Shown here piece by piece: positions 33,891-49,946 of a stretch of 64,000 nt of DNA (its first letter is position 1; every line of letters starts with the position of its first letter). The stretch is taken from positions 124,001-188,000 of the IMG/VR virus record IMGVR_UViG_3300036846_000743. One strand, given 5' to 3'. The notes below the pieces were generated by a model that saw only the letters and a list, made by a program, of their open reading frames with translations, had not been told where the DNA came from and searched no databases. The translations under genes and the position numbers were made by a program. This stretch comes from a virus.

Positions 33891-36800
33891 TTACCGGCCA
33901 GCTGGCGAGGACAGGGCCAGGGAAGCTGCCTGATGGCCCAGCGCTCCGGCCTTGGTGCCGAAGTGGTCATACATCGGGTCGTCTTTCACGGAGTCAGCGC
34001 CCTTGCCCTTCCAGGCATACTGGCCCCTGTTGGTCCTGACTTCCGGGCCGTGAATCACGCGGACTTTCTGCTTGGGACCGGTGCCGCAAGCTGCGCAAGT
34101 CGAACAGCCGCAGCCGCACTTCAGGGCGGCTGCCCGCTTGACGATGCCCGCCAGCACCCAGGGCAGATAAGCCTCAGCGTGCTTGCGCCTCATGCGCCGC
34201 CTGGAAGTTGCACGCTGCTTGCCCTGGTGCTTGCGGCTCTTCTTGCAGCCCGGATAGTGACTTTCCTTCTCGTGGCCTTCGTGATGTTGCTTTCGCTGTT
34301 TCTCCTGTGCGGCCTCCTCGTGCAGGCGCTGGGCCTCCCCGTAGCCGGCCAGGCCGCCCAGCCCGCCGCCGAGAGCCAGACCGGCAATCTGGCCCGGACC
34401 GCTGACACCGAATATGTCGGGAGACTGCGGCTCGTCGGCCAGCACCCGGCCGCCAATACCGCCCAGGCTGGCCAGGGAGCCGCCCATCATGCCCGTCATC
34501 ATGCCAGTCCCCAGGCCCCGCCCGGCCCCTTCCCAGCGATGACCCTTGCCGGCCATGAGCGCACCCAGCGGCGCCCCGATCGCTGCACCGCCAAGTGTGG
34601 TCGCCCCGATGAGTGGCAGGGTGCCCATGGCGGTCTTGACCCGGCCCTGCTTGGTGCGGCCGTCGGACTCGGACTTGTCATCATCCTTGTCCGACCATTC
34701 CCAGCTCGGCTTGCCCAGCATCCAGTTGCCCAGACCATAACCGCCGGCGCCGCCGCCCAGGGCACCGAGCCCGGCACCGACCGGGACCGCCAGGCCCCGG
34801 AGCCGCTCGGGCAGATACTCGCTCAGGCGATCGCCGGCCAGACCACCCATCAGGCCGCCAGCCGCGCCCAGCGTGCCGACGTTGCTGCCCACCAGGATGC
34901 CGCGGCCCAATCCCTCGCGCTTCTTGCCGTGCGGGGCCATGGTGCTCCCGAGCGTACCGCCGACAAGTCGCCCGGCGCCGCCGCCGATCATGGGGCCGGC
35001 CATGAGCCCTGCGGCCAAGGGGAGTGAAATAGCGCCCTTCTTGGTCATGGGCTTGTGGGGCTTACTGGGCTTTCCCACCTTATGAGGCAGACGGCCCAGA
35101 TGCTCGATGAGTTTCATGACCCGGTAAAACTGGGCTGGATTCACGCTCTCCTTGACCATGGCTTCCTTCCCGGTTGCCTCGGCCTCGATGATCTCGGCCA
35201 GCCGGCGGCGACGTTCGAGCAGCTTGCGCTTGCGCTCCTGCTCGGGCGTCTCCTGGTTCAAGTACGAATATAGCCCGTAGCCGCCGGCACCCAGGGCGCC
35301 CAGTCCGGCGCCGACCGCATAGGGCAGCGGCCAGTTCTTGATGTCCTGCATGGCACCCTGGCCCCAGCCCTGGACCTTGTTCCAGGCGCCCTGGCCCATC
35401 GTCTTGGCCTGGTCCCACCACGGCGGCGACGCCGGACCAGGCGTGGTTATGCTCGAAGTCATCGCGGCGCCGGGCGAACCACCAGTTGGCGCCGGGTTGA
35501 GATCACCTGTCGCGATTGCCCCGCCAGCAGCCGGTGCCGGCGTATCGTCGGGGAGCTTCGCACGATCACTCACACCAATCTGGCTTCGCTTCTCATATAC
35601 TCTTCCCCCTATGGGGGAAGAGTACATGCCAGCTCCCTTTTCGGCCATCGGTGCGGCCATGACGGCCTTGGTGTCGATGCCTGACAGCTGGGGGCTCGGG
35701 GCGAACGCGTCGCACATCTGGGTGGGGGCCACAGGCGTCTGCAAGAGCTGGCAGTCCTGGCCGGTGAAATTCACGCACGAAGCACACGAGACGGCCGCCG
35801 AAGTCGCATCCCGCAGGTTCACGTCTTCAGGGCTAGGCGCGTTATCACCGCCGTCTCCGCCGCCATCACCGTCGTGCTGGTTCGGGGCCGGCGGCATGGC
35901 CACGTCGCCAGGCTCGGGGTTCAGGGGCATGCCCATAGGGCGGTCCTCGTCGTCTTCCATGGGGCCGGCGAGCTTGGATAGCCAGGCCAGCTTGATAAGC
36001 CGGGCTCGAAGCGGCACAAGCTGCGCTGCACTCTTCTTGTGCGGCTTGTGATCTTTGTCTCCCTGCTGGGCTTGCTGCCGACTCGCGTCGAGAGCCACAC
36101 GAAATGACTTGGGAAGATAGAGCGGCTCGGTCATCCGGTTCCAGAGATTGGGCTGCGTCCGGTACTCGTCGATCCGCATGGGGTTGAGGTTGACATGCCC
36201 GATATGCTCGGGCTGGCGCGGACTGGGCATTATCATCGGATAATACTCGTCCTTGTGCTTGTCCTTGGTCACGGTATGCATGGGCTTGCCATAGCCGAAG
36301 AGCCCTCGCTTCTCGCGAGACTTCTTCTTGCCCTTGCCAGCCGGCTCGCCCAGCATGCCGCCTGATAGCCGCCAGCCGCCGTAGCCGCCCAGACCGGCAC
36401 CCAGCGTACTGCCAAGCGTGGTAGCGGCATTAGTCGGGATCGCACTGGTCAGACCGGAAAGAGCGCGGCCTCCGAGAGCGCCTGCCAGACCGCCCAGACC
36501 GGCACCCAGGCCCGTGGCTGATCCCCGGATCACGCCCCGACCAAGACCTTCAGGCGCATTACCGCGGCCAAGACCTAGCAAGCCACCCGCGGTACCACCC
36601 AGTGCTCCACCCGCAAGAGCCAGCCCGGGAATACCGAACGCGCCGAAATTCGCAAACGACTGCGATGGATCGTCGCCGTGATAGTCCGGCGGATAATAAG
36701 GCGTCCGGGTCGTCCCATCCGGCGACACCTTCCAGCCGAATGGCGCATCCTCGATGCCGGCTTTCTTCTGTCGTTTCTTCCTGTCTGGAGTACCAGCACC

Positions 36801-38612
36801 GACTGGTTCGCCCATCGTGTGGCTGGCCAGGCCCCAGCCGCCCAGGCCACCGAGGCCGGCTCCGAGCGCGCCGCCAGCCAGGGTCCCGCCAACGCCGCCG
36901 CCCAGCGCATTCCCTGCTGCGGCGCCCAGGCCAGCACCCAGGCCAATCCCGCTGCCAGTCAGTCCACCCCGGATCATGCCCCGGCCCAGGCCCTCGGACA
37001 CGTTACCACGGCCAGCGCCGACCAGGCTGCCGCCCAGACCGCCTGCGCCCGTGCCAGCCAGCCCGCCCAGGGCACCGGCGCCCAGACCAGCGGCGCCCAG
37101 TGCTGCTGGACCGGCCCAGCCGGGAACACCTCCTCCCGCGTATTCGCCCAGTCTTCCTATTCCCTCACTCAGCGCTTGCAGCGCCTCCATCGGATAACCC
37201 TGTGGATCACCCTGGGCTCGTTTGGCCAGGGCACTGCTCTTGGTGACGCCCAGCCCAGTGGCCCTGGGACCGTTCAGGTTGGCCAGGCCGCCAGAGATCA
37301 TGCTCGGGCCGGGTTTGATCGCTCCAGCCCCAGGGACGGGCATTCCCGGGGCTCCTGGCCGCATTCCCATCCTGGGCACGGCTGTGGGCGGGACCCTGGG
37401 AGCCAGCAAGTTCTGATTGCTCGCCACGGCGGCCGGTCCAAGGCGGGGCTGCATGGCCACTTGCTGCATGGTTGCACCCGGGCGAGTAGCCGCAACACCC
37501 ATGACGTTAGCGAACTTAGGCAATCTGGGTAAGTTATTTGTAGCTTGGTGATAAGTGGATGGATGCGTGGATTGACCAACTGATGCCCATTTGTCTTCTG
37601 AGCCTCGAACAGCTAGTCCACCGCCGATATTGGTGCCGATACCGGTCCAGGCTTGCCGGTTGAGATCACCCGACACGGCCGGATCGGCGATATAGTCCCG
37701 CTTGGTCGCCCCGGCCGGCATTCGCTTCATCAGGTCCGTGAGCCCCTGGTTCTGGGCGTTCCGGGCGTGATAACTGACCAAGCCTCCCAGCCCCGCCCCT
37801 CCCAGTCCCATCGCAGCGCCAGCGATTGGATTGCCGCCGGTTGCAGCCAGACCAAGGCCACCACCTAACAGACCACCCAGGCCCGCGCCCCCCGCCCCGG
37901 CCCAGCCTGGGCTCGACATCATCTCGGGCAAGGGAGTGCCATAACCCTGGAAGATGGTCGGGAAGATGCGCGACTGCGCGCGCTCGATGGCCTCTTCCTC
38001 GTCCGGTCTGAGCGCACGATGCAGCGGGCGAGGCGCCGCCTGCTTCGAAGCACCGGTCTTCTGTCCCCACCGGCTGGCCAGGTTCTCCCGGCGTGGAGAC
38101 AGCGCAGGATCACGCAGCGGGGTCAAGCCCGGATCGGCCTGCTTCGCGGAGCTACCCCAGTCGTCCATGGCAGCTCGAAGTGCCGCCATCTTCATGCCAC
38201 CAGCCTGGGGCGGGCCCGTGGGGGGCTGCGCGCCGGGCGGCAAGGCCGCGCCCTGGGCCTGGGCAGCCTGCTGCTGCTGGGCCTGCATCTTGATCGCACA
38301 CTCGGCGCCTTGCTGGCTGTTGGGGTCGGCCACCGAGCAGGCAATCGCGTCGGGGGGCGGTGGCGGCGGGGGCATCGGCTGTCCGGTGGCCGGGTCTACC
38401 GGTGGAGCACCGCCGCCGCCAGCCATAGCATTCGGGTCCATGCCTGGGGGTGGAGCACCACCAGGCGGCGGCTGTCCCCCGCCCTGCTGCTGGGCTTGCA
38501 GTGCTTGCTGGGCCAGTTGCATCTGGACATCAGGCGTCGCGGCCTGGGGGTCCATGCTGGGAGTAATTATGGCCAGCTTGGTGAGTCGCTGCGTCAGATC
38601 GGCGCGCATCAA
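33891..38612 (-). CDS. Large multi-segment membrane-type virion protein with repeated EGLGRG modules
   Basis: A 1573-aa protein. Residues 1-140 are Gln/Pro/Gly-rich. Gly-zipper segments follow near 235-290, 494-607, 657-770, 1088-1138, 1194-1308 and 1328-1434. Four of these are copies of one module of about 110 residues, with a hydrophobic run, then EGLGRG or EGAGRG, then a second Gly/Ala/Leu run ending GLGGxGGW or equivalent, in three copies followed by a LGEP or LGKP turn. A Cys cluster near 937-970 (CASCVNF..DCQ..VAPTQMCDAF) matches a motif known in phage head proteins, and the C-terminus has CGCGCSTCAACG. Charged linkers carry K-x-A elements. Multiple membrane-spanning segments suggest a pore or injection component. 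Confidence 0.78.
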   Translation of the reverse strand: MMRADLTQRLTKLAIITPSMDPQAATPDVQMQLAQQALQAQQQGGGQPPPGGAPPPGMDPNAMAGGGGAPPVDPATGQPMPPPPPPPDAIACSVADPNSQQGAECAIKMQAQQQQAAQAQGAALPPGAQPPTGPPQAGGMKMAALRAAMDDWGSSAKQADPGLTPLRDPALSPRRENLASRWGQKTGASKQAAPRPLHRALRPDEEEAIERAQSRIFPTIFQGYGTPLPEMMSSPGWAGAGGAGLGGLLGGGLGLAATGGNPIAGAAMGLGGAGLGGLVSYHARNAQNQGLTDLMKRMPAGATKRDYIADPAVSGDLNRQAWTGIGTNIGGGLAVRGSEDKWASVGQSTHPSTYHQATNNLPRLPKFANVMGVAATRPGATMQQVAMQPRLGPAAVASNQNLLAPRVPPTAVPRMGMRPGAPGMPVPGAGAIKPGPSMISGGLANLNGPRATGLGVTKSSALAKRAQGDPQGYPMEALQALSEGIGRLGEYAGGGVPGWAGPAALGAAGLGAGALGGLAGTGAGGLGGSLVGAGRGNVSEGLGRGMIRGGLTGSGIGLGAGLGAAAGNALGGGVGGTLAGGALGAGLGGLGGWGLASHTMGEPVGAGTPDRKKRQKKAGIEDAPFGWKVSPDGTTRTPYYPPDYHGDDPSQSFANFGAFGIPGLALAGGALGGTAGGLLGLGRGNAPEGLGRGVIRGSATGLGAGLGGLAGALGGRALSGLTSAIPTNAATTLGSTLGAGLGGYGGWRLSGGMLGEPAGKGKKKSREKRGLFGYGKPMHTVTKDKHKDEYYPMIMPSPRQPEHIGHVNLNPMRIDEYRTQPNLWNRMTEPLYLPKSFRVALDASRQQAQQGDKDHKPHKKSAAQLVPLRARLIKLAWLSKLAGPMEDDEDRPMGMPLNPEPGDVAMPPAPNQHDGDGGGDGGDNAPSPEDVNLRDATSAAVSCASCVNFTGQDCQLLQTPVAPTQMCDAFAPSPQLSGIDTKAVMAAPMAEKGAGMYSSPIGGRVYEKRSQIGVSDRAKLPDDTPAPAAGGAIATGDLNPAPTGGSPGAAMTSSITTPGPASPPWWDQAKTMGQGAWNKVQGWGQGAMQDIKNWPLPYAVGAGLGALGAGGYGLYSYLNQETPEQERKRKLLERRRRLAEIIEAEATGKEAMVKESVNPAQFYRVMKLIEHLGRLPHKVGKPSKPHKPMTKKGAISLPLAAGLMAGPMIGGGAGRLVGGTLGSTMAPHGKKREGLGRGILVGSNVGTLGAAGGLMGGLAGDRLSEYLPERLRGLAVPVGAGLGALGGGAGGYGLGNWMLGKPSWEWSDKDDDKSESDGRTKQGRVKTAMGTLPLIGATTLGGAAIGAPLGALMAGKGHRWEGAGRGLGTGMMTGMMGGSLASLGGIGGRVLADEPQSPDIFGVSGPGQIAGLALGGGLGGLAGYGEAQRLHEEAAQEKQRKQHHEGHEKESHYPGCKKSRKHQGKQRATSRRRMRRKHAEAYLPWVLAGIVKRAAALKCGCGCSTCAACGTGPKQKVRVIHGPEVRTNRGQYAWKGKGADSVKDDPMYDHFGTKAGALGHQAASLALSSPAGR

Positions 38613-39602: not shown

Positions 39603-40256
39603 TCACGTGTCGATGACCCGCACTCGCGGCGGTCTCGGTACAGCAATTCCCGGCTCAGGGGCCGGTAGTTTCACATTCTCGACCAGGGCGGCGAACTTGC
39701 CCGAGGCCAGCATGCCGTTATCGGCGGCCTCCTGCAAGACCAGGTCCCTGTCGATGCCGTCGTTGTTGCCGGCCGCCAGCTTGATCAGGTCCCGCATCAC
39801 GGACTTGAGCGGCCTGAGCTGGACGGTCGAATCCCAGTCCACCGGCGTCCCGAAGGGCTTCGTGACCGGCGGAAGCGGATTGTCGAACCCCTTGGACCAG
39901 GCCCAGGGCGACATCCCCAGCGCGAGCAAAAACGGCGGCACGATCTCGCGCTCGATCAGCTCCCGGACGCCGGTCTCGATCAGGTCCAGGAGCGTGTCGA
40001 TGTGCAGGGCAAGGCAGCGACACCGGAAGTCGACAGCGAGCACGCCGTCGGTCGTCTTCTGGGGCCGGCTCACTTCCATGCGCTCGATGATCCGCTCGTG
40101 CTCCCACCATTCATTGGGGATCACGACCCCCGGGGTGAGCACCCCGCGGCCCATGATCCGCAAGTAAGGATCAGCCTTGGCCTGACGCCGCAGTTCCGTG
40201 TGCAGCTCCGAGAGGATGACCGACGCGACCGGCGTGCCTGGCGGCGGAGCAGCCAT
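39603..40256 (-). CDS. Structural-type protein with a portal-like C-terminal tag
   Basis: A 217-aa protein of unknown family. The body is alpha/beta-looking (VASVILSELHTELRRQAKADPYL, ALHIDTLLDLIETGVRELIE), and a Trp-rich stretch (LGMSPWAWSKGFDNP) lies near residue 113. The last 9 residues, PPRVRVIDT, match the C-termini of two nearby proteins and of the portal. The shared ending suggests a common docking or sorting role in the virion. Confidence 0.72.
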   Translation of the reverse strand: MAAPPPGTPVASVILSELHTELRRQAKADPYLRIMGRGVLTPGVVIPNEWWEHERIIERMEVSRPQKTTDGVLAVDFRCRCLALHIDTLLDLIETGVRELIEREIVPPFLLALGMSPWAWSKGFDNPLPPVTKPFGTPVDWDSTVQLRPLKSVMRDLIKLAAGNNDGIDRDLVLQEAADNGMLASGKFAALVENVKLPAPEPGIAVPRPPRVRVIDT

Positions 40257-40267
40257 GTCCTGGTCTC

Positions 40268-40648
40268 CTACGTGTCGATGATCCTGCGGCGAGGTGCAGC
40301 CAGCTTCGGCTGGCCAATGGACGATGGCGACTTGGGCTGGGGCGGCGGTCTGGATACTGGCTTCTTCTGCACGTTGTGAATCACGGCCGTGTCGGGCAGC
40401 GGCTTGAGCCCCGGCCCCGACTTCGCCAGGAAGTCCCTGGCCTGGAGCGGGGCCGACTGCATCACGATGACCTCGCCGGGCCGGACATGCGCGGATCGCT
40501 TGATCGCGACGGAGTACGGCCTGTTGGAATACGCCGCGGTCATGGCCAGCTGATCGAGCACGTTGAAGACGTCGGGCGCGGCCACGAAGATGGTGCCCGG
40601 CGCGGCGGTATTGAGCAGATCATTGAGCTGACTGACGTTCACGGACAT
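40268..40648 (-). CDS. Small protein with a portal-like C-terminal tag
   Basis: 126 aa from the ATG at 40648 (AGGG upstream). An alternative ATG at 40759 would add 37 residues and overlap the previous gene by 8 bases. The N-terminal 80 residues look like a small alpha/beta domain (NLLNT-type start, IFVAAPDVFNVLDQLA). A Pro-rich linker follows (VSRPPPQPKSP), ending in APRRRIIDT. The ending is shared with the portal and two neighbours. Confidence 0.68.
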   Translation of the reverse strand: MSVNVSQLNDLLNTAAPGTIFVAAPDVFNVLDQLAMTAAYSNRPYSVAIKRSAHVRPGEVIVMQSAPLQARDFLAKSGPGLKPLPDTAVIHNVQKKPVSRPPPQPKSPSSIGQPKLAAPRRRIIDT

Positions 40649-40751
40649 CAAGCTACCCTGCTTCAAAGGGCACCAGGACAGCAGCGGCGAGAAAGTCGCT
40701 AAACGCCGCTGCCACCCCGGACCGCCGGAGTGCACGACGGTGCCGTCGATC

Positions 40752-40985
40752 CTACTCATTCACGACCCGGGCCGCTATCTCACGAATTCTCAGGTCCAAG
40801 ATCAGGTCCATGGAGCCCCGGGGCTGAGCTTTGCGCTCGTGGTGCAGGCAGAGCGCCTGGATCAGCAGATCGGGATAGGCAATGCAGCCCTTGTCCATGC
40901 TGTAGATCGCCACCGCCGGGCTATCGCACAGCGAGCAGTGCAGGACAGGGCCAAGGCCCCGACCGGGGCTGTCACCGCAGGGCAA
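40752..40985 (-). CDS. Small Cys-containing protein, 77 aa
   Basis: TTG start directly after the previous stop. HCSLC near residue 16 and CLHHERK near residue 46 could form one zinc site of the HNH- or ribbon-like kind, but no catalytic residues are clear. The C-terminal helix is LDLRIREIAARVV. Weak start signals; coding is supported by packing between two genes. Confidence 0.5.
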   Translation of the reverse strand: MPCGDSPGRGLGPVLHCSLCDSPAVAIYSMDKGCIAYPDLLIQALCLHHERKAQPRGSMDLILDLRIREIAARVVNE

Positions 40986-41423
40986 TCACCTGGCCTTGCG
41001 GGGCTGCGCGCCCACGTTTCCCGTCGTGATCGGCATGGAGCTGTCCCGGACATCCATGTTCCTCATGCCCTTGGTCTCCCTGGGCATGGTGATCGGGATC
41101 GTGCTGTCGGGCCGTGGCCGCGGCAGCTTCCCGGGCTCGGTGTCCACGACGGGAACAGCCATACCCCCCTGGAAGACCAGGGAGAACTGACCATCGACGA
41201 CGCCGGTCGAGATGACCGGATGCTCCTTCAGGTACGCGCAGCCGATCTTGATGAAGCGCTCGATGTGCTCCCACGACTCCTGGGGCGGGGAGCCCGGCAG
41301 GAAGCTCCCCAGGTAGACGTTGTGCAGCAGATCCAGCAGGTCGATGCCGATGTATGGCTCGTCATCGCCGCCGGACGTGCCGGCGACCTGTCCCTGCTTC
41401 TGTGCGAATTCGTGCGGGTCCAT
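40986..41423 (-). CDS. Hypothetical protein, 145 aa
   Basis: Not recognised. The N-terminal half is helical (GIDLLDLLHNVYLGSFLPG, WEHIERFIKIGCAYLKEHP), followed by a beta-rich region (GQFSLVFQGGMAVPVVDTEP). The tail is rich in Pro, Arg and Met. It starts 1 base into the previous stop codon and sits in the group of small genes with tagged C-termini, though it lacks that tag itself. Confidence 0.65.
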   Translation of the reverse strand: MDPHEFAQKQGQVAGTSGGDDEPYIGIDLLDLLHNVYLGSFLPGSPPQESWEHIERFIKIGCAYLKEHPVISTGVVDGQFSLVFQGGMAVPVVDTEPGKLPRPRPDSTIPITMPRETKGMRNMDVRDSSMPITTGNVGAQPRKAR

Positions 41424-41767
41424 CAGGTGTCAACTATCCTCCGGCGAATGGAAGGGACCGCAACCGGTGACTTCGCCCCTGGGCCGGTAGCAGAACTAAC
41501 CGGCTGGTCATCCAGCGATGAAGGCGGCTGCGGTTGTATCACAGTTTTCTGGGGCCCTGCGTTGATGATCACGGGCTTCTCGGCGATGGTCTTGTAGAAT
41601 GGCTTGACTTTCACGGGCTTGCCCGTATCGACGTCAAGTCCCACCAGGCCATTCGCCGCGGGAGCCAGCTGGACCACGTAGCCACTGTCCAGCTCGACTG
41701 GCTCGGTGGCGGCCAGCTCGGCCCCGACTTGCTCGAAGAAGTCCCGCAAGCATAGCTGCGTTGACAT
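41423..41767 (-). CDS. Small protein with a portal-like C-terminal tag
   Basis: 114 aa. The N-terminal helix (LCLRDFFEQVGAELAATEPV) and a beta segment (SGYVVQLAPAANGLVGLDVD) are followed by a long linker with Pro, Ser and Gln, ending SIRRRIVDT. The layout (small folded part, disordered linker, conserved terminal peptide) is the same as in the gene at 40268-40648. Confidence 0.7.
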   Translation of the reverse strand: MSTQLCLRDFFEQVGAELAATEPVELDSGYVVQLAPAANGLVGLDVDTGKPVKVKPFYKTIAEKPVIINAGPQKTVIQPQPPSSLDDQPVSSATGPGAKSPVAVPSIRRRIVDT

Positions 41768-41771
41768 TTAC

Positions 41772-41984
41772 TCACTCCGGCGACTCGTGATCTTCCGGGT
41801 GCTGCTGGATGTGCTCGCCCTGCTTCAAGACCTTGTAGTGCATGGCATCGTCCTTGATGGCGAGTGTGACCTGGAAAGTGGTACCGACAGGATCAACCCG
41901 GTTGATCTGGAACGAGATCGTTTCCCCTGTCTTTACATTAACACAGTGTACCCATCGGCCGCACTTTCGCCTTACCATGAGCAT
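41772..41984 (-). CDS. Small CsrA-like protein, 70 aa
   Basis: It begins MLMVRRKCGRW and continues with a short beta-rich sequence: ETISFQINRV, then FQVTLAIKDDA, then YKVLKQGE. Spacing and the M-L-x-x-x-R-K start recall CsrA/RsmA, an RNA-binding translational regulator whose first strand is MLILTRK. Similarity is limited and the RNA-contact residues near the C-terminus are not clearly conserved, so this is tentative. It ends in an acidic tail. Confidence 0.45.
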   Translation of the reverse strand: MLMVRRKCGRWVHCVNVKTGETISFQINRVDPVGTTFQVTLAIKDDAMHYKVLKQGEHIQQHPEDHESPE

Positions 41985-42006
41985 CGGTCAAAAGCCCTTC
42001 CGTGGT

Positions 42007-42636
42007 TCACGTCCTTGCGACATCTGATCGGACAGCACTACGAGCAGCCCGCGCGTCATCGATCCCGTGCGAGACCTTGGTCAGCGAATCTCGTGCTGCA
42101 TCGATCAGCGCCATGAGCGACTTGTGCCCGACCAGTCTGGGCATTGCCTGGAGAAGCTGGCCATGGCGTTCGATGATGTGCTTGAGCTGCTGGCCATGAC
42201 GCAGATACTCTCCCGGGGTGAGGTCAGTTAGCACCTTGTGCGCGAATGCAGCGATCTCGGCGAGCTTGATCAGCTGAGCTACCTCGGAGGCCAGTCCGAG
42301 AGCCTCGCGTAGCTTGAGATGACGGGTAGGCTCGGTCATGCGGTTGTCGGGCGTCACCTGGGCCAGCAAGTTCGCGACTTCCGGGCTGGCCAGCCCGCAG
42401 ATCTCCTCGAAGGTAAGACCGTAGCCATCCATGGCGTAGATCAGGATGCCGGCGCAGCGCGCCACAATCACGGAGCTGGTCTCGCCGTCGTAGAGGTGAG
42501 CCCGGCGCCCGACGTACTGTTCGGCAAAACGCCCTACGCCCGGCGGATCGGCCCGGCATGGGACGGCGTCTCGCACGACCAGGTCTCTGTGCGGTAAATA
42601 AACATATAGCTCCAGCGCAGTTGGGTCGAGTGGCAT
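42007..42636 (-). CDS. RelA/SpoT-type HD-like protein with degenerate metal site
   Basis: 209 aa from the ATG at 42636, preceded by GGAGG with a 5-base gap. Residues about 85-150 follow the HD hydrolase pattern of RelA/SpoT: YGLTFEEICGLASPEVANLLAQVT, then R-x-L-K-L-R-E-A, and ASEVAQLIKLAEIAA. The His-Asp pair that normally binds metal (LLHDxxED) is replaced by YAMDGYG. It may therefore be inactive for (p)ppGpp hydrolysis or have a new role. The assignment is from pattern only. Confidence 0.5.
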   Translation of the reverse strand: MPLDPTALELYVYLPHRDLVVRDAVPCRADPPGVGRFAEQYVGRRAHLYDGETSSVIVARCAGILIYAMDGYGLTFEEICGLASPEVANLLAQVTPDNRMTEPTRHLKLREALGLASEVAQLIKLAEIAAFAHKVLTDLTPGEYLRHGQQLKHIIERHGQLLQAMPRLVGHKSLMALIDAARDSLTKVSHGIDDARAARSAVRSDVART

Positions 42637-42710
42637 TGGATCCTCCAATGGTAAATTCCATGAAGATGCCTCCCGCACCTTACCCAACAAGCACTTGGAG
42701 CTTCAATGCG

Positions 42711-43709
42711 TTACTTCTTGTGTTCCGGCGGCTTATGTTCCGGCGGCCGATGCGTTTCGGGTGACCTGGCATGGTGCTCGGCCGGCTTGGCATGGTGCTC
42801 GGCCGGCTTGGCATGGTGCTCGGCCGGCTTGGCATGGTGCTCGGCCGGCTTGGCGTGATGTTCCGCCTGCTTGGCCGCCGCCTCCTTCTTTTCGGCCTCG
42901 CCTTCGGTCTGGAGCCTGGGCGGCTCGACGAACGAACCATCGGGATGGACCGTGCCCTGGGCTGGCACGCTGCCGAAGCTGGCCCGCCGGGGCAGCCCAA
43001 ACGCCCCGGTGATGCCGCCACCAGCACTGGGCGGAGTCACAGGCGCGCCGGCCGAGCCGCCAGGTGCTTCCGGCTGGAAATGGCCATCCGGCGTCCTGGC
43101 CGACACGGTACGCATTGTCTTGGGCGCCATCTTGGCCTGTTCGAGCGCCGTGACGACGCGCGAGCCCCGCGGGGTCACAACCGGGGTGACTGCGCGCACA
43201 ACCGGCACGCCGCCGGCGATGCCCGTGCCGCTGTGGGTCGGGACCGTCATGTTCGCCATGGCTCGCAGCCGGGGATCGGCCTTGGCGATCTCATCCTCGT
43301 CCATCTCGGCCAGTATATTCATGACTTCGACGCGGGCACGTAGCCGGTCACGGTAGCCAATCTGGTTCTGCCGGTAGCCATCACCGCCGACGGTATAGGC
43401 CGTGCTGTAGCCGCCGCCTCGCTGCCCCTTGGTGGCAACCTGTGGTACTCCGACGTTGCGCAGCTTGGGACGGTTGGGATAGCGGCGGCCGCTGCGTCCC
43501 ACGATCGCATCGGGATAACCGTCGCGATCGTAGTCGATCATGACCGGGCTGACCGCCCTGGCGCCGCGCTCGACCCGGGCATCGAAGCTCTCGATAGGTC
43601 CGCCGCCAGCAGCAGCATCACCATTCTCGATCGCCTCCTTGCGGCGAGCCTTTTCTTCGGGCGTCAGCTGACGATGACCTTTGTGCGCTGTCTCGTGTGC
43701 TTTGGCCAT
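42711..43709 (-). CDS. Virion-type protein with calcium loop and His-rich C-terminal repeats
   Basis: A 332-aa protein. Near residue 59 DYDRDGYPD is an EF-hand or FG-GAP-like calcium loop. The middle is Gly/Pro/Ala-rich with RVVTALEQAKMAPKT. The C-terminal 60 residues are five copies of HHAKPAE-type heptads followed by HRPPEHKPPEHKK. The N-terminus is basic and helical. The His-rich tail may bind metal or DNA. Function unknown. Confidence 0.68.
   Translation of the reverse strand: MAKAHETAHKGHRQLTPEEKARRKEAIENGDAAAGGGPIESFDARVERGARAVSPVMIDYDRDGYPDAIVGRSGRRYPNRPKLRNVGVPQVATKGQRGGGYSTAYTVGGDGYRQNQIGYRDRLRARVEVMNILAEMDEDEIAKADPRLRAMANMTVPTHSGTGIAGGVPVVRAVTPVVTPRGSRVVTALEQAKMAPKTMRTVSARTPDGHFQPEAPGGSAGAPVTPPSAGGGITGAFGLPRRASFGSVPAQGTVHPDGSFVEPPRLQTEGEAEKKEAAAKQAEHHAKPAEHHAKPAEHHAKPAEHHAKPAEHHARSPETHRPPEHKPPEHKK
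42770..42853 (-). repeat. Four perfect 21-bp tandem repeats encoding HHAKPAE
   Basis: Four identical copies of a 21-base unit (CATGGTGCTCGGCCGGCTTG plus G on the plus strand) encode the His-rich heptads of the 332-aa protein; a fifth copy is diverged. Identity at the DNA level points to recent expansion or slippage. Confidence 0.9.
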
Positions 43710-43801
43710 GGGAGCGAACTCCTTCTCAAGGATCGGCCTTCCGAACGACTGAACAACGGATCTCTTATCTTACGCATCAGCACGGTGTGACGGTAGAGCG
43801 T

Positions 43802-44458
43802 TCAGAAATGCGCCGCCACAACTCCCGGTTGGTGAATCACTGGCAGCTTGTGCGCGCAGCGCAGATAAGCCCCGAAATAGTCGGCGTCATGCCGCTCCTG
43901 TGCGTGCTTGAAAACGCCCAGCTCACAGGCCCTGATCGTGGGGAAAGCCATGCAGGTCAGATCAACTTCGCCGGGCCTGAGATCATCGACCGGGTGCTTG
44001 CGGCTCGGCCGCACGCCCAGATACATGGGATGCGGCAGCAAGACCTGGGGATTGTATTCGCGCGTCACCCACCAGTCGATGTCGACCAGCGACAAACAGC
44101 CAGGCACCCTGGCGATGTTCTCGGCGTGGGCCAGTAAGTAGTCAGGATACAGCATACAGTCGTGTCCGATGATCACCGTGTAGTCGCCGGTCGCCAGCTC
44201 CAGCCCGCGGCGGCGTGAGACATTGCCCCATTTACCCGGCGCGCTGGGTAAGGTAACGAAGCTGAACCGCTCGGGCATGCCCGGTTCCATCAGCGTCGTG
44301 AGAAAGTCATCGAAGATAGCGCGGGCAACAGGGTGCGCGCCGTCGGCCACGAAGATCACGTTCCAGTCAGCCAGCTTTTGCCGCAATATCGTGGAAAGAA
44401 TATTGGGCATGAGCCCTTCCCGCTCATAAACCGTGACGACGATGGTGAACTGGCTCAT
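43802..44458 (-). CDS. GT-A family 2-like glycosyltransferase, 218 aa
   Basis: I start at the ATG at 44458 (MSQFTIVVTVYEREGL), the typical GT2 opening, overlapping the previous gene by 4 bases. WGNVSRRRGLELATGDYTVIIGHDCMLYPDYL contains the R-R-G-L-E and the metal-binding acidic pair (HDC). EVDLTCMAF later is the acceptor-side strand. It ends the sulfotransferase/glycosyltransferase cassette. Confidence 0.78.
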   Translation of the reverse strand: MSQFTIVVTVYEREGLMPNILSTILRQKLADWNVIFVADGAHPVARAIFDDFLTTLMEPGMPERFSFVTLPSAPGKWGNVSRRRGLELATGDYTVIIGHDCMLYPDYLLAHAENIARVPGCLSLVDIDWWVTREYNPQVLLPHPMYLGVRPSRKHPVDDLRPGEVDLTCMAFPTIRACELGVFKHAQERHDADYFGAYLRCAHKLPVIHQPGVVAAHF

Positions 44459-45171
44459 AGCGCGACCCACGGCTTGATCGGGTGATGTCGGCAGCGGAAG
44501 AACGGGTTCCCCAGCCGTTGCTTGTTCCAGGGATCCCTGGTGCGGCCCGGCGAGAGCGAAATGCACTGCATATTCAACCGCCACAGACAGTACGCAAATG
44601 ACAGCTGGTCGCGCCGGCTGCCACGCTCGATCTCGCCCCACCACAGCTCGGAAAGCCGTCTGAGCTGCCCGCTGTGCCGCCGCAACAAGATCGATGTTTC
44701 GTGCAGCTTGTAACCCTTGCTGTCAAAGCCTTCCTCGCAGTAGCGCAGCATCTGGGCCTGAACCACGGCCGGATCGTCAACCGGGATGGAGATGACCTGC
44801 TCGGCTTCTTCTTCGAGCGTATTCCGCGAAGGATGCCGGAAGCTGGCGATGTCCGGCCCCCGCAGGAACCATTCGGGGAACCAGGAGATATCGGCCACCG
44901 GTTCGTAATTTGCGTCCATCCAGATCGAGTATTCGTACTCCGGAAAACACTCCATGGGATTGTGCTTGTGCCAGCGGGCCGTACGCACCGGATCGGTCGC
45001 GTGTCGCCAGAGCAGCGGCCGCACGACCCACGGCGCTGTGCTGATCTGGGGATCAAGCTCCTTATCGAGGAAAAGCACATAGTCGAACTGAGGACAGACG
45101 AACGATACCTGCGGGCAAGGATCTCGGTCGGCGACGATGCAGGTGTAAAAGACCGTCTTCATGCTGATCAT
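44455..45171 (-). CDS. TOD1/MUCI70-like (DUF616) glycosyltransferase
   Basis: A 238-aa protein. The blocks YTCIVADRDP, DYVLFLDK, YSIWMDANYEP, SFRHPSRNTLEEEAE, LHETSILLRRH and ELWWGEIERGSRRDQLSFAYCLWRL follow the DUF616 family closely, including the W-M-D-A-N metal-site block. The family is found in bacteria and plants as putative glycosyltransferases. It overlaps both neighbours by 4 bases. Confidence 0.8.
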   Translation of the reverse strand: MISMKTVFYTCIVADRDPCPQVSFVCPQFDYVLFLDKELDPQISTAPWVVRPLLWRHATDPVRTARWHKHNPMECFPEYEYSIWMDANYEPVADISWFPEWFLRGPDIASFRHPSRNTLEEEAEQVISIPVDDPAVVQAQMLRYCEEGFDSKGYKLHETSILLRRHSGQLRRLSELWWGEIERGSRRDQLSFAYCLWRLNMQCISLSPGRTRDPWNKQRLGNPFFRCRHHPIKPWVAL

Positions 45172-45992
45172 CCGCGGTAATGGTGGGTGATGTCCTCGTG
45201 GAGCCGGGCCAGGGACATCTCACGGACTTCTCCTCGCCAGTGATAGTCGGCTTCGACGGCGTCATTCCCCGTGTGGATGTGATAACACCGGGCGATGCTC
45301 CGGCACATGTTCTCGTGCAGGAGCCTGAGCTGTCGGTGCGAGTTGAAGTCATGCCCGAGCCGGATCAGTAATTCGATCTTGTCGAGATGGCCGAAATGAT
45401 AGGACTCATCGTAGCGAATGCCCAGGTTCCAGCCGTGCCGAGTGATGATGAGCTGAGGCTCGTCCAGCTCAGCAGTCGGCACTGGCACACCTGCCAGCGC
45501 AGCATTCCAGGATGCATGACTGATCCGGAGCATCGGCAGCGAGTAGGCCAGCTTGCCTTTGCCGTCGACGTGATCACTCACGATCTCGGCCATGACTTCT
45601 TCCCATAGGTCCCATGTAAACCCGCAGTCGCCATCCAGGACGGCTGCGAACTGGGCGCCATGCTCATCGAAAGCGATGCGGAGGCCCTCGTTGCGGGCGT
45701 GGTTAATTCCGGGGCAGTAAAGCAAGCGATCGTCGCGACCCTTGGCCTTGAAGTAGGGATCTTCCCTGAACACCAGTTCGCGAAGTCGGCCCCGGTACCC
45801 GGGCGCGAGCAGCTTGCAGTAGGCCGCGACCAGCTCCGGGTTCCAGACCCGGTTGATGATCCAGTACTTGGTCACGCCGCCCAGTTCTGGCTCCCTGAGT
45901 AATTGCTCGAGCACGACCAGCCTGCTGCCTGGCAGATCACGAGGTGGCAGCTCATTGCCCAGGATCCTGATCACGAAGAAAAGCGGTCTCAT
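45168..45992 (-). CDS. Glycosyltransferase-like protein with DxD motif, 274 aa
   Basis: 274 aa from the ATG at 45992. A GT-A type site is seen in FAAVLDGDCGFTWDLW, and a strand-turn arrangement ending with CPGINHARNEGLRIAFDEHG precedes it, as in GT2 enzymes. The later blocks ITRHGWNLGIRYDES and HENMCRSIARCYHIHTGNDAVEADYHWR carry several His residues. The substrate is unknown. The gene overlaps the GT-B gene upstream by 4 bases. Confidence 0.68.
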   Translation of the reverse strand: MRPLFFVIRILGNELPPRDLPGSRLVVLEQLLREPELGGVTKYWIINRVWNPELVAAYCKLLAPGYRGRLRELVFREDPYFKAKGRDDRLLYCPGINHARNEGLRIAFDEHGAQFAAVLDGDCGFTWDLWEEVMAEIVSDHVDGKGKLAYSLPMLRISHASWNAALAGVPVPTAELDEPQLIITRHGWNLGIRYDESYHFGHLDKIELLIRLGHDFNSHRQLRLLHENMCRSIARCYHIHTGNDAVEADYHWRGEVREMSLARLHEDITHHYRG

Positions 45993-47026
45993 CGCGTCTT
46001 CCACACCTCCCGCGGAACAGCGTCTAACCATGCGGCCTCGAAGTCAAGCCGCCGCTGTTCCAGACCGATCGAGCAGCCTGCGGATATCCGCGACAATTCG
46101 GCCGGTTCGGTGAGGAGCATGAGCGCGTCGATCAGGCTCTGTCGATCTGCCGGCATGAGCAGTGTCAGCTCATCGGGGACGAAACTGGCAGCCGAGCAGG
46201 GAACCAGTATCGAATTCCTGGGGTTTGCCAGCTCATCGAGCGTCTGGGTGTCGAACCCCACGATGGGCGTTCCCATGTGGAGCGAGAACAAGGCCCACAT
46301 GCCGAAGTTGTAGATGGTCGACGAGAGCAGAGTTACCGAGTGCTCGCCACAGCGCAGAAGCTGTTGCTGATAGTTCACCGGCCGATCGAGAGTCAGCCGG
46401 GGCTCGATCTTCGCCAGGTTTTCGAGCCGCTTGACCAGGACACCGCGGCGACCATCCATCGAAACTGTAACCTGAACAGACTGATCATATTCGAACAACG
46501 CCTCGACGACATCGATGACCGAGCCGTCACCGCTATCTTCCGGTCGGTCGACCGGGGGCACGTAAACCTTGAGTGATCCATCGGGTTGCCGGTTCGTGAC
46601 CGGCAGCATCGGGCTCCACGGACATAAGGTCGCATTGCGCAAGCCGCGATCCTTGAGTATATGGACCCAGTGCTGACTGGGAGCCATGACCCGCCAGAAC
46701 TGCCGACCAGCTTCACCGATCGCGCGCAGATCATCCCAGTCAGGTACCAGGATAGCGCGCTTGCCAGCCTTGGCCACCCAGGTCGGCTGAGCTGGCTGCG
46801 GGCAAAATGTCCAGATCACGATATCGAGCGTGGCCGCCCAGTCAGTAAACCGGATCTGCGAATCATGCCGGACCCGTTTGTCCCAGAAACTGCTCACCAG
46901 TGGCTTCCTGGGCGTCGGCGTCAGGATGGTCACATCATGCTGCCACTGGCTCATCAGATCGGCGATCTGGATGGCCGCGTAGGTTGAGATCCGACGTTGC
47001 CATCGGGTATAGATGCCGACGTTCAT
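45989..47026 (-). CDS. GT-B-like glycosyltransferase, 345 aa
   Basis: The N-terminus MNVGIYTRWQRRISTYAAIQIADLM and the pattern of two Rossmann-like halves suggest a GT-B enzyme. Supporting blocks are LDIVIWTFCP, RAILVPDWDDLR, VYVPPVDRPEDSGDG and STIYNFGMWALFSLHMGTPIVGFD, the last being the donor-site helix with an acidic partner missing. No membrane segment. It is the first glycosyltransferase after the sulfotransferase gene. Confidence 0.65.
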   Translation of the reverse strand: MNVGIYTRWQRRISTYAAIQIADLMSQWQHDVTILTPTPRKPLVSSFWDKRVRHDSQIRFTDWAATLDIVIWTFCPQPAQPTWVAKAGKRAILVPDWDDLRAIGEAGRQFWRVMAPSQHWVHILKDRGLRNATLCPWSPMLPVTNRQPDGSLKVYVPPVDRPEDSGDGSVIDVVEALFEYDQSVQVTVSMDGRRGVLVKRLENLAKIEPRLTLDRPVNYQQQLLRCGEHSVTLLSSTIYNFGMWALFSLHMGTPIVGFDTQTLDELANPRNSILVPCSAASFVPDELTLLMPADRQSLIDALMLLTEPAELSRISAGCSIGLEQRRLDFEAAWLDAVPREVWKTR

Positions 47027-47039
47027 TCACCACCCCGGC

Positions 47040-47927
47040 TCAACCAGCCTTCGGCCGGACTTGCTGCGACCGGTGCGGCATATCCTTTCCGCGATCATAA
47101 AGGACCCAATCCAGGTCTTCCGGAAGCGACGCCGCGATGGCGTCTGCCACACCCGGTTCGAGTAGCTCGCGCCACTCGTCAACAGTTGAATGGTCTAGTC
47201 CCACCGGCCGCGCCTTGCGCTGCTCTTCGACCCAGTGCGGATAAGTGAACATGGTCTTCCCGTCCTGCGCGTAGCTGTTCGCCGGGCTCGTCATGGCCGG
47301 GTCGTAGTCGATCCCGATGAACTCAGCGATCCGTGACATCTGCTGCTCGGGAAAGAGCACCACATCCTCGAATCGCACCAGCAGGACCGGCCTGTCAGCA
47401 TCCAGCGCAGCCACGGCATCACTGGTCATGTGTGCGTAACGGTGCGCGGCGCTGACGGGGTTTTCCTTGTACCAGGGTCGCTTGCACCACGAGCAGTAAA
47501 CTGCTCGCGGATCTCTGACCATGACGAGCGTCGGTATGTCCGGCATTTTGGAAAAGACGTGGCTGATCAGGTAGCCGATGTAGAAAACGCTCCTGTCGAC
47601 CAGGATATCCCGATCATGGATCCCGTAGTGCGCAACTATATGGTCGAAGACTTCCGCGTACATGCTTTGCCAGCTACCAGTGGCCCTGATGGTCTTGTCG
47701 GCAATCTTCTCCAGTTCGGCTTCAGTTATGACTCGGCCGAGCGGTGGCAGGGGCCCTTCCCCCGATATTGGCGCAAATGGATCTACGTATGGAGGTTTGG
47801 TGTTAATGTTTAGAATCCCCACCTCAGTCTCCGCGAGGATCCGGGGATGAGCCCGCAGCAGGTCCAGCATCAAGGTGGTGCCGCTGTTCGTGACCCCGCA
47901 AAGAGCCAAGACCTTTGTAAGTAGCAT
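47040..47927 (-). CDS. Sulfotransferase
   Basis: A 295-aa protein with the 5'-PAPS phosphate-binding loop GVTNSGTTLMLDLLRAHP (residues 11-28) and the 3'-phosphate block VMVRDPRAVYCSW near residue 135 (Arg and Ser). The C-terminal LLVRFEDVVLFPEQ matches the family. It would transfer sulfate from PAPS to a hydroxyl, here most plausibly on a sugar. It opens a run of five genes with the four glycosyltransferases. Sulfation of a phage-made glycan would be unusual. Confidence 0.82.
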   Translation of the reverse strand: MLLTKVLALCGVTNSGTTLMLDLLRAHPRILAETEVGILNINTKPPYVDPFAPISGEGPLPPLGRVITEAELEKIADKTIRATGSWQSMYAEVFDHIVAHYGIHDRDILVDRSVFYIGYLISHVFSKMPDIPTLVMVRDPRAVYCSWCKRPWYKENPVSAAHRYAHMTSDAVAALDADRPVLLVRFEDVVLFPEQQMSRIAEFIGIDYDPAMTSPANSYAQDGKTMFTYPHWVEEQRKARPVGLDHSTVDEWRELLEPGVADAIAASLPEDLDWVLYDRGKDMPHRSQQVRPKAG

Positions 47928-47951
47928 TGGTCGTCTCCGTTCGCTGGCAGC

Positions 47952-49946
47952 TCAGACATCCACTATCCGCACCCGCCGAGGTCGCTTCAGCATCAGCCCC
48001 GTCGGCACCGGCAGCGGTGCCGCCGCGCCTTGCTTGCCATACTGCTGGGCTAGTACCTGCTGTCCTCCCTGCATCTGGGCCTCCTGCTTCTGGTCGTCCA
48101 TCCGCGACTTGACGAGCGCGTGCAACGTAGGATCAGTCTTCTTGAGGGAGATCAGCTCGCTCTGTCGCTGACTGTCGGGCAGGCTCTGAAGCTGGCCCGC
48201 GATCTCCTCGGCCTTGGCCATCAGTTCCTGGGGTGTAACCGGCGTATTGGCACCACCACCTGCTGCGCCAGCGGCCCCTCCACCGCCTGGAGGCGCGCCA
48301 CCCGGAGGAGCGCCGCCACCGCCGCCAGCGTCCGGAGGTGCACCTCCTGCTGGAGCACCTCCCGGCGGCGCTCCACCCGCAGCAGCGCCTTGGACCGCCT
48401 GTTGCATCTGTGCTTCATCGGCCATCTCCTCCTGCATCTTCTGGGTCTCGTCGGCAACGAACTTCTCTTCCTCCAGCATCTGCTTCTGCTCATCCTCGAA
48501 GTCCATGCCGACCGAGCGAAGCCCGGTGGTTTGCGAGATCTGCTTGCCCATCATGAGCTGGAGCTTGGCCGCCTGACGGTTCATGTCGTCGGCGTGAGTG
48601 ACCTTCATGAGCCGCGCGGTGACTGGCTCCCAGTTCAAAGCCTTGGCGAGCGATTCGACCAGCCAGCCCAGGAAGCCATTCATGTTGTGCGTGAGCGGTG
48701 CCCAGTAGCTCTCGAAGAGCCGCAGGGCCGGCGGAGCCGCCGACATGGTCAAGGTCCCCTTGTACATGTCGGCCGGGATACCAGCTGCGTTCAACAGGTG
48801 ATCAATGCCCTGGTCAAGCAGGTCCTTGGGTGCCAGCTGGTTGGCATCGCCACCCATGGCCTTGTATTCCAGTGGGAACGGGATCACGTTCCAGCGGGCT
48901 GGATCTTTGCGGCGCGCCGCCAGCATGCGGTTCACCCGCGAGACGAACGTACCCATGTTGGCACCGAGCACGGGATCCTGGGCCGCCGGATCGGCAGCCC
49001 CGCCCTTGGACGCCGGCATGATCACCCGGAATGGGATCACGTAGTCCAGGGCGATGGCTTCGTTGTATCTGTGCAGGACCTGGACGTACCAAGCCTGGCC
49101 GAAGTTCGACAGGACTTTCGAGATGCCCCAGCCCTTGTTGCGGACACCGGCTAGAGCATCGTCTTTCATGTGATAGATGATGCCGGGGTCGAACTGGAGC
49201 ATCTTGTTGTTCTTGACCGCCTGGATCACTTCCCAGTTGGCACGCTCGAGATGGAACAGCTTGCCGCGGCGAATGTCCTGCCGGTAGTCCTCGGGGATCT
49301 TCCAGATGTAGGACGTATCGTCGGTCAACGTGTCATAGAGGATCTCCATGTAGTGGGGGTCCCACCGCTTGACATGAACGTCCGCTTCCTCGCCAGAGCG
49401 ACGATCGATGTGATGCCAGGCGCCGTTGTAATTGCACTCCGAGTTGGGACACTTGGCATGGAAGTCGAAGTCCTGCCACTGAAAGTGGAAGTCAGGTGTG
49501 CTGTAAACTTTTCGTAAGGGCCACTCGGTATAGCAGCGAGGGCAGCTCAGATAGCGCCGGAACGGTATAACTACAGATGTGAATGAGTTTCCGTAGCATG
49601 CATAGTCCGTGGCCACGTAGTTCAGGACGCTCTTGTAGTCGATCGTCTCGTCAAGGAACTCCTTGAATTTATCTTTCTCCTCGCGGCTGGCATCCTGGGA
49701 GCTGACTTCGATATCGGTGATGAAGTAAGAGACGATGCGCCTCATGGCCTCCCGGTACACGCCCATCTTGCTAAAGATGAACTCGCACCAGTACATTATA
49801 TCTCTGGGATGCTCAGGCATCACAGTTGAAGCCATGTCGCAAAATGGATCTGGGAAATTCTCGCTGCCTCGCATCGTGAAGTTCCCCGATGCGAAGAGCT
49901 TGTTGTCGCTGACGGTAAGACTCATCGTGTCGTCCTTGACGGCCAA
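47952..49946 (-). CDS. Portal protein with a zinc-finger insertion
   Basis: A 664-aa protein. Blocks characteristic of tailed-phage portals are DYACYGNSFTSVVIPFRRY, VIQAVKNNKMLQFDP, ALAGVRNKGWGISKVL, and LLNAAGIPADMYKGT..PALRLFESYW. Residues 135-171 hold C-P-R-C and C-P-N-S-E-C, a zinc-finger-like insert seen in some large-phage portals. From residue 510 onward the protein is a Gln/Met/Ala-rich helix followed by a Pro/Gly linker. The last residues RPRRVRIVDV match the C-termini of three smaller proteins nearby. It forms the dodecameric DNA gate at one head vertex in known phages. Confidence 0.85.
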   Translation of the reverse strand: MAVKDDTMSLTVSDNKLFASGNFTMRGSENFPDPFCDMASTVMPEHPRDIMYWCEFIFSKMGVYREAMRRIVSYFITDIEVSSQDASREEKDKFKEFLDETIDYKSVLNYVATDYACYGNSFTSVVIPFRRYLSCPRCYTEWPLRKVYSTPDFHFQWQDFDFHAKCPNSECNYNGAWHHIDRRSGEEADVHVKRWDPHYMEILYDTLTDDTSYIWKIPEDYRQDIRRGKLFHLERANWEVIQAVKNNKMLQFDPGIIYHMKDDALAGVRNKGWGISKVLSNFGQAWYVQVLHRYNEAIALDYVIPFRVIMPASKGGAADPAAQDPVLGANMGTFVSRVNRMLAARRKDPARWNVIPFPLEYKAMGGDANQLAPKDLLDQGIDHLLNAAGIPADMYKGTLTMSAAPPALRLFESYWAPLTHNMNGFLGWLVESLAKALNWEPVTARLMKVTHADDMNRQAAKLQLMMGKQISQTTGLRSVGMDFEDEQKQMLEEEKFVADETQKMQEEMADEAQMQQAVQGAAAGGAPPGGAPAGGAPPDAGGGGGAPPGGAPPGGGGAAGAAGGGANTPVTPQELMAKAEEIAGQLQSLPDSQRQSELISLKKTDPTLHALVKSRMDDQKQEAQMQGGQQVLAQQYGKQGAAAPLPVPTGLMLKRPRRVRIVDV

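Follow-up and report, generated by a model that had tools for sequence, protein, structure and literature searches.

Eight proteins sharing a C-terminal tail

The 64,000-nucleotide window analyzed here, bases 124001-188000 of the 226,073-bp virus record IMGVR_UViG_3300036846_000743 in IMG/VR (G000 below), contains four minus-strand genes whose products, the phage portal protein among them, end in versions of one short peptide. The portal (664 aa; window 47952..49946) ends in KRPRRVRIVDV, with the tag R-V-R-I-V-D-V encoded at 47955..47975. A 114-aa protein (41423..41767) with a Pro-rich linker ends in VPSIRRRIVDT (tag R-R-R-I-V-D-T, 41426..41446), and a protein of up to 163 aa, the start codon of which is uncertain (40268..40759), likewise has a Pro-rich linker and ends in APRRRIIDT (..KLAAPRRRIIDT; tag R-R-R-I-I-D-T, 40271..40291). 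The fourth, of 217 aa (39603..40256), ends in PRPPRVRVIDT (tag R-V-R-V-I-D-T, 39606..39626). All four open reading frames (ORFs) and endings lie exactly where the original prediction had placed them, and its observations that the bodies are unrelated and that a linker precedes the tag were borne out: the four proteins have no common family, and the linker is Pro/Ala-rich in every case.

The portal assignment is supported by a tblastn match (25.7%, E 2e-54) to a protein of Salmonella phage Arash that is annotated as a portal, and by Foldseek, in which almost all of the 50 matches listed were named portals or necks, the query being a low-confidence model (pLDDT 55.6) with a disordered C-terminal tail. 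No relatives of the portal were found in bacterial genomes, and none of the 217-aa and 114-aa proteins in IMG/VR, where the up-to-163-aa protein was not searched.

The whole record was then scanned for a strict motif, R-x-R-[IVL]-[IV]-D-[TV], by reading the frame ahead of each stop codon. Eight carriers were found, all on the minus strand, ending at record positions 40808, 41156, 41824, 163603, 164268, 165423, 171952 and 194316; the four endings of the original prediction stand, but its total was too low. The carriers outside the window end in ..KQRSRIVDT (40808), ..SRRSRIVDT (41156), ..NERVRLVDV (41824) and ..AKRTRVIDT (194316), and comprise a DUF3150 protein, two SWIM zinc-finger-type proteins and a 167-aa protein. 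Eight matches among 1,969 mechanically called ORFs (>=60 aa) compare with a mean of 0.0025 (maximum 1) in 2,000 shuffles in which the last 30 residues of each ORF were permuted, although the two SWIM-type carriers are paralogues and their tails do not count as independent occurrences. The strict motif was absent from all 9,067 ORFs (>=60 aa) of other, unrelated phage loci, and every genome with the strict form is a metagenomic contig.

Codons vary among all copies of the tag, one of the stop codons is TAG, and no sequence is shared after the stop. The differing codons and the lack of conservation downstream rule out a DNA or RNA repeat and indicate that selection acts on the peptide. A nucleotide-level element was rejected on this codon comparison, and an Rfam scan of the window gave no match.

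Two relatives, G001 (IMGVR_UViG_3300036791_001907, 161 kb), whose portal is 89% identical to that of the window, and G002 (IMGVR_UViG_3300047160_005727, 141 kb), have the tail, encoded by different codons, on all orthologues found. The endings in G001 are RIRPVDT (portal), RVRPVDA (DUF3150), RSRPVDT and RSRQVDT (the two SWIM-type proteins) and RTRVIDT (167-aa protein); as this contig stops soon after the portal, it allows no comparison for the three small genes of the window. In G002, RVRPVDV, RSRSIDT and RTRSVDT occur on DUF3150 and SWIM-type proteins. Identities at tag positions 1-7 over eight orthologous pairs number 8, 6, 8, 1, 7, 8 and 6, an alternating pattern in which R1, R3, V/I5 and D6 are held and position 4 drifts, being I/L/V in the window genome and P/Q/S in the two relatives, in all carriers except the 167-aa protein. 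The linkers of the portal and DUF3150 protein are conserved, and those of the SWIM-type carriers are 40-50% identical. Defined positions are therefore conserved against a diverging linker, as in docking motifs, and the way in which fixed and free positions alternate suggests that the peptide is bound in extended-strand form. A short motif within a disordered tail or linker, on mostly unrelated bodies, is also what defines a short linear docking motif, and on these comparisons we take the tag to be a short linear motif maintained at the protein level. The tail is missing from distant portals, namely those of Salmonella phage Arash, Vibrio phage D69 and the IMG/VR loci L027-L036.

Beyond the strict carriers, comparison of G000, G001 and G002 revealed near-terminal or internal variants on at least three more proteins. 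An AAA+ ATPase (record 43399-45111; L004:5399-7108) ends in KRARQVNTGD, and in KRSRQVNTGD or KRSRQVNTGE in relatives; a protein at record 208948 ends in QRVRSIDTD (G001: QRVRPVDTGASE); a protein at record 10715-12025 has an internal KRRVRPVDTG (G001: KRRVRVVDTD); and a protein at record 77777 has RRVRQVDVGAGSPRKG, in G000 only. Given that the motif can lie slightly inside the C-terminus or be internal, a free carboxylate is not strictly needed.

Several other genes of the window, all on the minus strand, deserve mention. A 332-aa protein with perfect KPAEHHA repeats at its C-terminus (window 42711-43709) is a neighbor of the tagged genes. Directly downstream of the portal, a cluster at 43802-47927 encodes a sulfotransferase (E 6.5e-14), TOD1/MUCI70-like and family-2 glycosyltransferases, and two further ORFs without a Pfam match; Corndog-type mycobacteriophages likewise have methyl- and glycosyltransferases between their portal and protease genes. 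In phage Arash (L025:5938-12488), the portal relative is followed by one small gene and then a gene of 4.6 kb whose annotation is RNA polymerase beta subunit, a position at which Vibrio phage D69 has a same-sized gene with no named product. Elsewhere in the window, a 164-aa phage protein (4695-5189) has a canonical C-terminal PEP-CTERM sorting signal (PF07589, E 1.9e-6; ..VPEPSTFLLFAIGLVFVLVARRIHRLWG), which suggests that the host has an exosortase system and that the phage uses it. Very large Pro/Ala/Gly-rich putative virion ORFs (10681-19614, 23752-27585 and 33891-38612) repeatedly contain short K-[LM]-A segments, VKLAA and IKLAW among them, at which a protease might process the proteins.

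The p97-like ATPase and its operon

The operon of the tailed ATPase (L004:1804-8327; record 39804-46333) also encodes a GP88 protein, the tail-bearing DUF3150 protein and both SWIM-type carriers, as well as a DUF2997 protein (E 2.4e-8). The DUF3150 match is weak (1.4e-4) and, like the SWIM match (0.0049, for one of the two proteins), falls under the Pfam cut-off; no DUF1257 protein was detected in this phage. By sequence (Pfam AAA, 5.8e-15; PDB profile match to p97, 1e-71) and by predicted fold (best Foldseek matches p97/Cdc48, E 1e-19; pLDDT 87.4, pTM 0.83), the ATPase is p97-type. The model leaves its last 16 residues disordered, and the tail would thus be free to dock. DUF2997 and DUF1257 partners have also been found to adjoin a ferredoxin gene in cyanobacteria (PMC4284462), and the ATPase/DUF2997/DUF3150 module may have a cellular counterpart.

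This operon resembles a known AAA+/DUF2997/DUF1257/DUF3150 arrangement (phrog_8638; Corndog gp96; Rhizobium L338C_050) in its ATPase, its DUF2997 protein, its weakly matching DUF3150 protein and the kind of tail on the ATPase. It differs in that DUF1257 is undetected in the window phage, and the literature searches made gave no published shared tail for the known arrangement.

Tails in other phages with the ATPase

A profile search of IMG/VR with the ATPase yielded 53 loci, and many of the homologues bear tails of the same kind: a conserved 'RA.PAS' segment is followed by a variable linker and then by [KR]-x-R-x or G-R-x plus [VL]-[DNQ]-[LIV], as in KVRVLDL (Corndog-type), VRTLDF, GRVVDL, KRTLDI, GRQLDL, KRKLNL and KRRVQL. 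The following gene often encodes a protein of ~220 aa or a DUF3150-like protein of ~270 aa, and many of these partners also have the motif at or near their end, for example GRVLDI (L080), KSRALDL (L085), RRRALDL (L088), GRALDLGA (L102), SRAINLD (L059) and RRRAINFD (L077). Internal copies occur in partners as well (SGRALDL in L085, SGRAIDF in the Corndog type, FGRALDF in L068 and SARVLDL in L062). The tails of ATPases and partners resemble each other (likeness 320) more than shuffled tails do (mean 270, maximum 307). No component other than the ATPase occurs in all loci examined, partly by construction since the loci were collected through the ATPase. Neither DUF2997 nor DUF1257 was found by iterative HMM search in Corndog-type loci, which are nonetheless tailed; either protein is thus disfavored as the sole receptor of the tail.

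Several phages with the ATPase also place their own version of the tail on further unrelated proteins. In IMGVR_UViG_3300000976_000012 (93 kb), about a dozen unrelated proteins have KRAIRL-type tails (KRAFRI, KRAIRL, RRALNIDP, RRATNLDD, KRGVTLDLD, KRAVHL, RRAIHL, KRAIAL, KRAITL, KRATRI, SRAINLD and similar); there are 13 pattern matches against 0.85 expected, a number reached in none of 200 shuffles. Orthologous pairs of the cultured Rhizobium phages RHph_I4 and L338C end in TRRAVKL/ARRAVKL, VKRNVKL/VKRNVKL, IRRKINLD/IRRKINLD, RRRVDLDD/RRLIDLSD and IKRNTRLED/IKRKTRLDD. Across 18 genomes with the ATPase, a general pattern (T1) was observed 28 times against 1.68 expected (maximum 7), the totals including the ATPase and partner genes themselves, and in six genomes without the ATPase it was not enriched (1 observed, 1.06 expected).

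A proposed docking tail and its alternatives

Unrelated proteins of one phage, then, share a tag under protein-level constraint, and the phage's own ATPase bears a variant of it. The proposal in the original prediction of a transferable docking or sorting tag is well supported by the combination of linker and short motif on unrelated bodies, and equally by conservation in two relatives, position-specific constraint and the lack of conservation at the nucleotide level. Its further suggestion of assembly around the portal did not hold as a general role: half of the strict carriers are encoded outside the portal region, the ATPase with the variant tail has many similarly tailed homologues, and distant homologous portals lack the tail. 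With carriers genome-wide, a tag for portal assembly only is ruled out as the general function.

The explanation that we favor, to which we assign an even chance, is that the AAA+ motor and its partners or clients have a docking tail in common, which in the window clade was extended to the portal. The tail probably acts as an address by which the proteins reach one and the same docking partner of the motor. Its form, on which our confidence is likewise evenly balanced, would be R-x-Phi-polar-Phi (here R-x-R-x-[VI]-D-[TV]) at the end of a flexible C-terminal linker, the same kind of tail as that of the ATPase. A single receptor could read all of these tails, binding them as an extended beta-strand through a face formed by R3, V/I5 and T/V7. 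This receptor may be the AAA+ ring itself, a candidate because no other component is found at all of the loci examined, or an accessory that recognizes the ATPase tail as well. Tagged proteins would be brought to the motor as adaptors or as clients. In the window clade, the portal and its three neighbors would have acquired the tail, probably to let the motor or its chaperone complex act on them in infected cells, either ahead of head assembly or in the course of it; they would thus be clients or partners of the motor late in infection.

A precedent for such an arrangement exists in p97/Cdc48, the C-terminal peptide of which is read by PUB and PUL domains, with a peptide of OTULIN using the same pocket; p97 tails also contact the neighboring subunit (PMC5559722). 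As in that system, a p97-like AAA+ ATPase here has a short C-terminal peptide, predicted to dock, and further proteins bear a peptide of the same kind, as OTULIN does for the p97 pocket. The peptides themselves differ (DDLYG in p97, RxRxVDT here, with RxRxVNTG[DE] on the ATPase), no PUB or PUL domain was identified among the proteins scanned, and the phage has far more unrelated carriers per genome, the portal included.

Several observations weigh against our explanation. The ATPase tail is not docked on its own monomer, in what is a single-chain model. Some ATPase homologues have no clear tail match (e.g., L075, L089, L090 and L095), and G003, G006, G009, G010, G017 and Smooch have the ATPase with no spread of the tail beyond the operon. 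ATPase and partner tails from one phage do not match significantly better than those from different phages (p = 0.06-0.07), and we make no claim of phage-specific tail 'dialects'. The general patterns were framed after the data had been seen and thus give an enrichment rather than an unbiased frequency, and the controls without the ATPase amount to only six genomes.

Of the alternatives, the one that fares best, although we consider it unlikely, is a capsid-targeting tag: the peptide would bind the scaffold or procapsid interior, placing the portal at the vertex and loading the other carriers as ejected internal proteins, as in T4. The tagged portal fits this proposal, as do the three carriers just downstream of it and the several carriers between the terminase and portal genes, or beside the portal, in RHph_I4, L338C, G005 and G011. 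Portal C-termini, moreover, often face the capsid interior. Like the T4 capsid-targeting sequence, the tag is a short transferable peptide common to unrelated phage proteins. The T4 sequence, however, is N-terminal, is found on virion-internal proteins and is removed by the prohead protease, whereas the tags described here are mostly C-terminal, with some internal, and occur on the ATPase (as a variant), on operon partners including DUF3150 and on the portal. In addition, the portals of RHph_I4, L338C and other relatives are without the tail. Proteomics of Corndog also argue against a simple capsid-packaging tag, and against portal assembly, as the ATPase homologue gp96 was detected only in infected cells and not in purified particles, and the partner gp95 was absent from twice-banded particles (PMC4351075).

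We regard it as quite improbable that the tails are unfolding or degradation signals, that is, degrons or remodelling signals for host ClpX or the phage ATPase. The C-terminal ClpX signal of MuA, RRKKAI (PMC5143411), is similarly a C-terminal peptide of basic-hydrophobic character on a phage protein, recognized by an AAA+ unfoldase, and the tails KRAIRL, KRAFRI and RRAVKL of other phages resemble it in being basic and then hydrophobic at the C-terminus. The window tails, in contrast, end in Asp-Thr or Asp-Val and have Asp within the motif, several copies are internal or precede acidic residues, and many proteins carry the tail rather than one with an Ala-Ile end addressed to a host unfoldase. 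The portal, needed in 12 intact copies, is also an unlikely substrate for degradation.

A similarly low probability attaches to a localization signal that sends proteins to a phage replication factory or compartment through a receptor unrelated to the ATPase. The mixture of structural and apparently DNA-metabolic carriers would fit such a signal, but the link of the tail to the ATPase and its operon across diverse phages would be left unexplained. Finally, an origin at the nucleotide level or by chance (a DNA or RNA element at gene ends, a recent duplication of gene ends, or coincidence) has the paralogy of the two SWIM-type carriers in its favor and is very nearly negligible given the free codon variation with one TAG stop, the lack of conservation downstream, the chance expectation stated above and the persistence of the tail in relatives as linkers diverge.

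A wider interpretation is that of a phage address system, a proposal that we make tentatively and at somewhat less than even confidence. Phages with the ATPase operon would place on chosen proteins a form of the C-terminal tail of the ATPase itself, a common receptor would gather structural, nucleic-acid and chaperone proteins to one machine, and the tail would be gained and lost independently of fold. Searches of the open-access literature for a shared C-terminal phage tag, phage DUF3150 or p97-like phage ATPases returned nothing relevant, and we found no described phage system whose p97-like motor has its short tail in common with a dozen unrelated proteins, the portal included. The question is open to study in cultured phages such as Corndog and the Rhizobium phages L338C and RHph_I4. 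Should the tail recruit proteins to the motor, it would provide a handle on a widespread, uncharacterized phage operon (AAA+, DUF2997, DUF1257, DUF3150), its clients would be predictable from sequence alone, and it would constitute a small portable tag.

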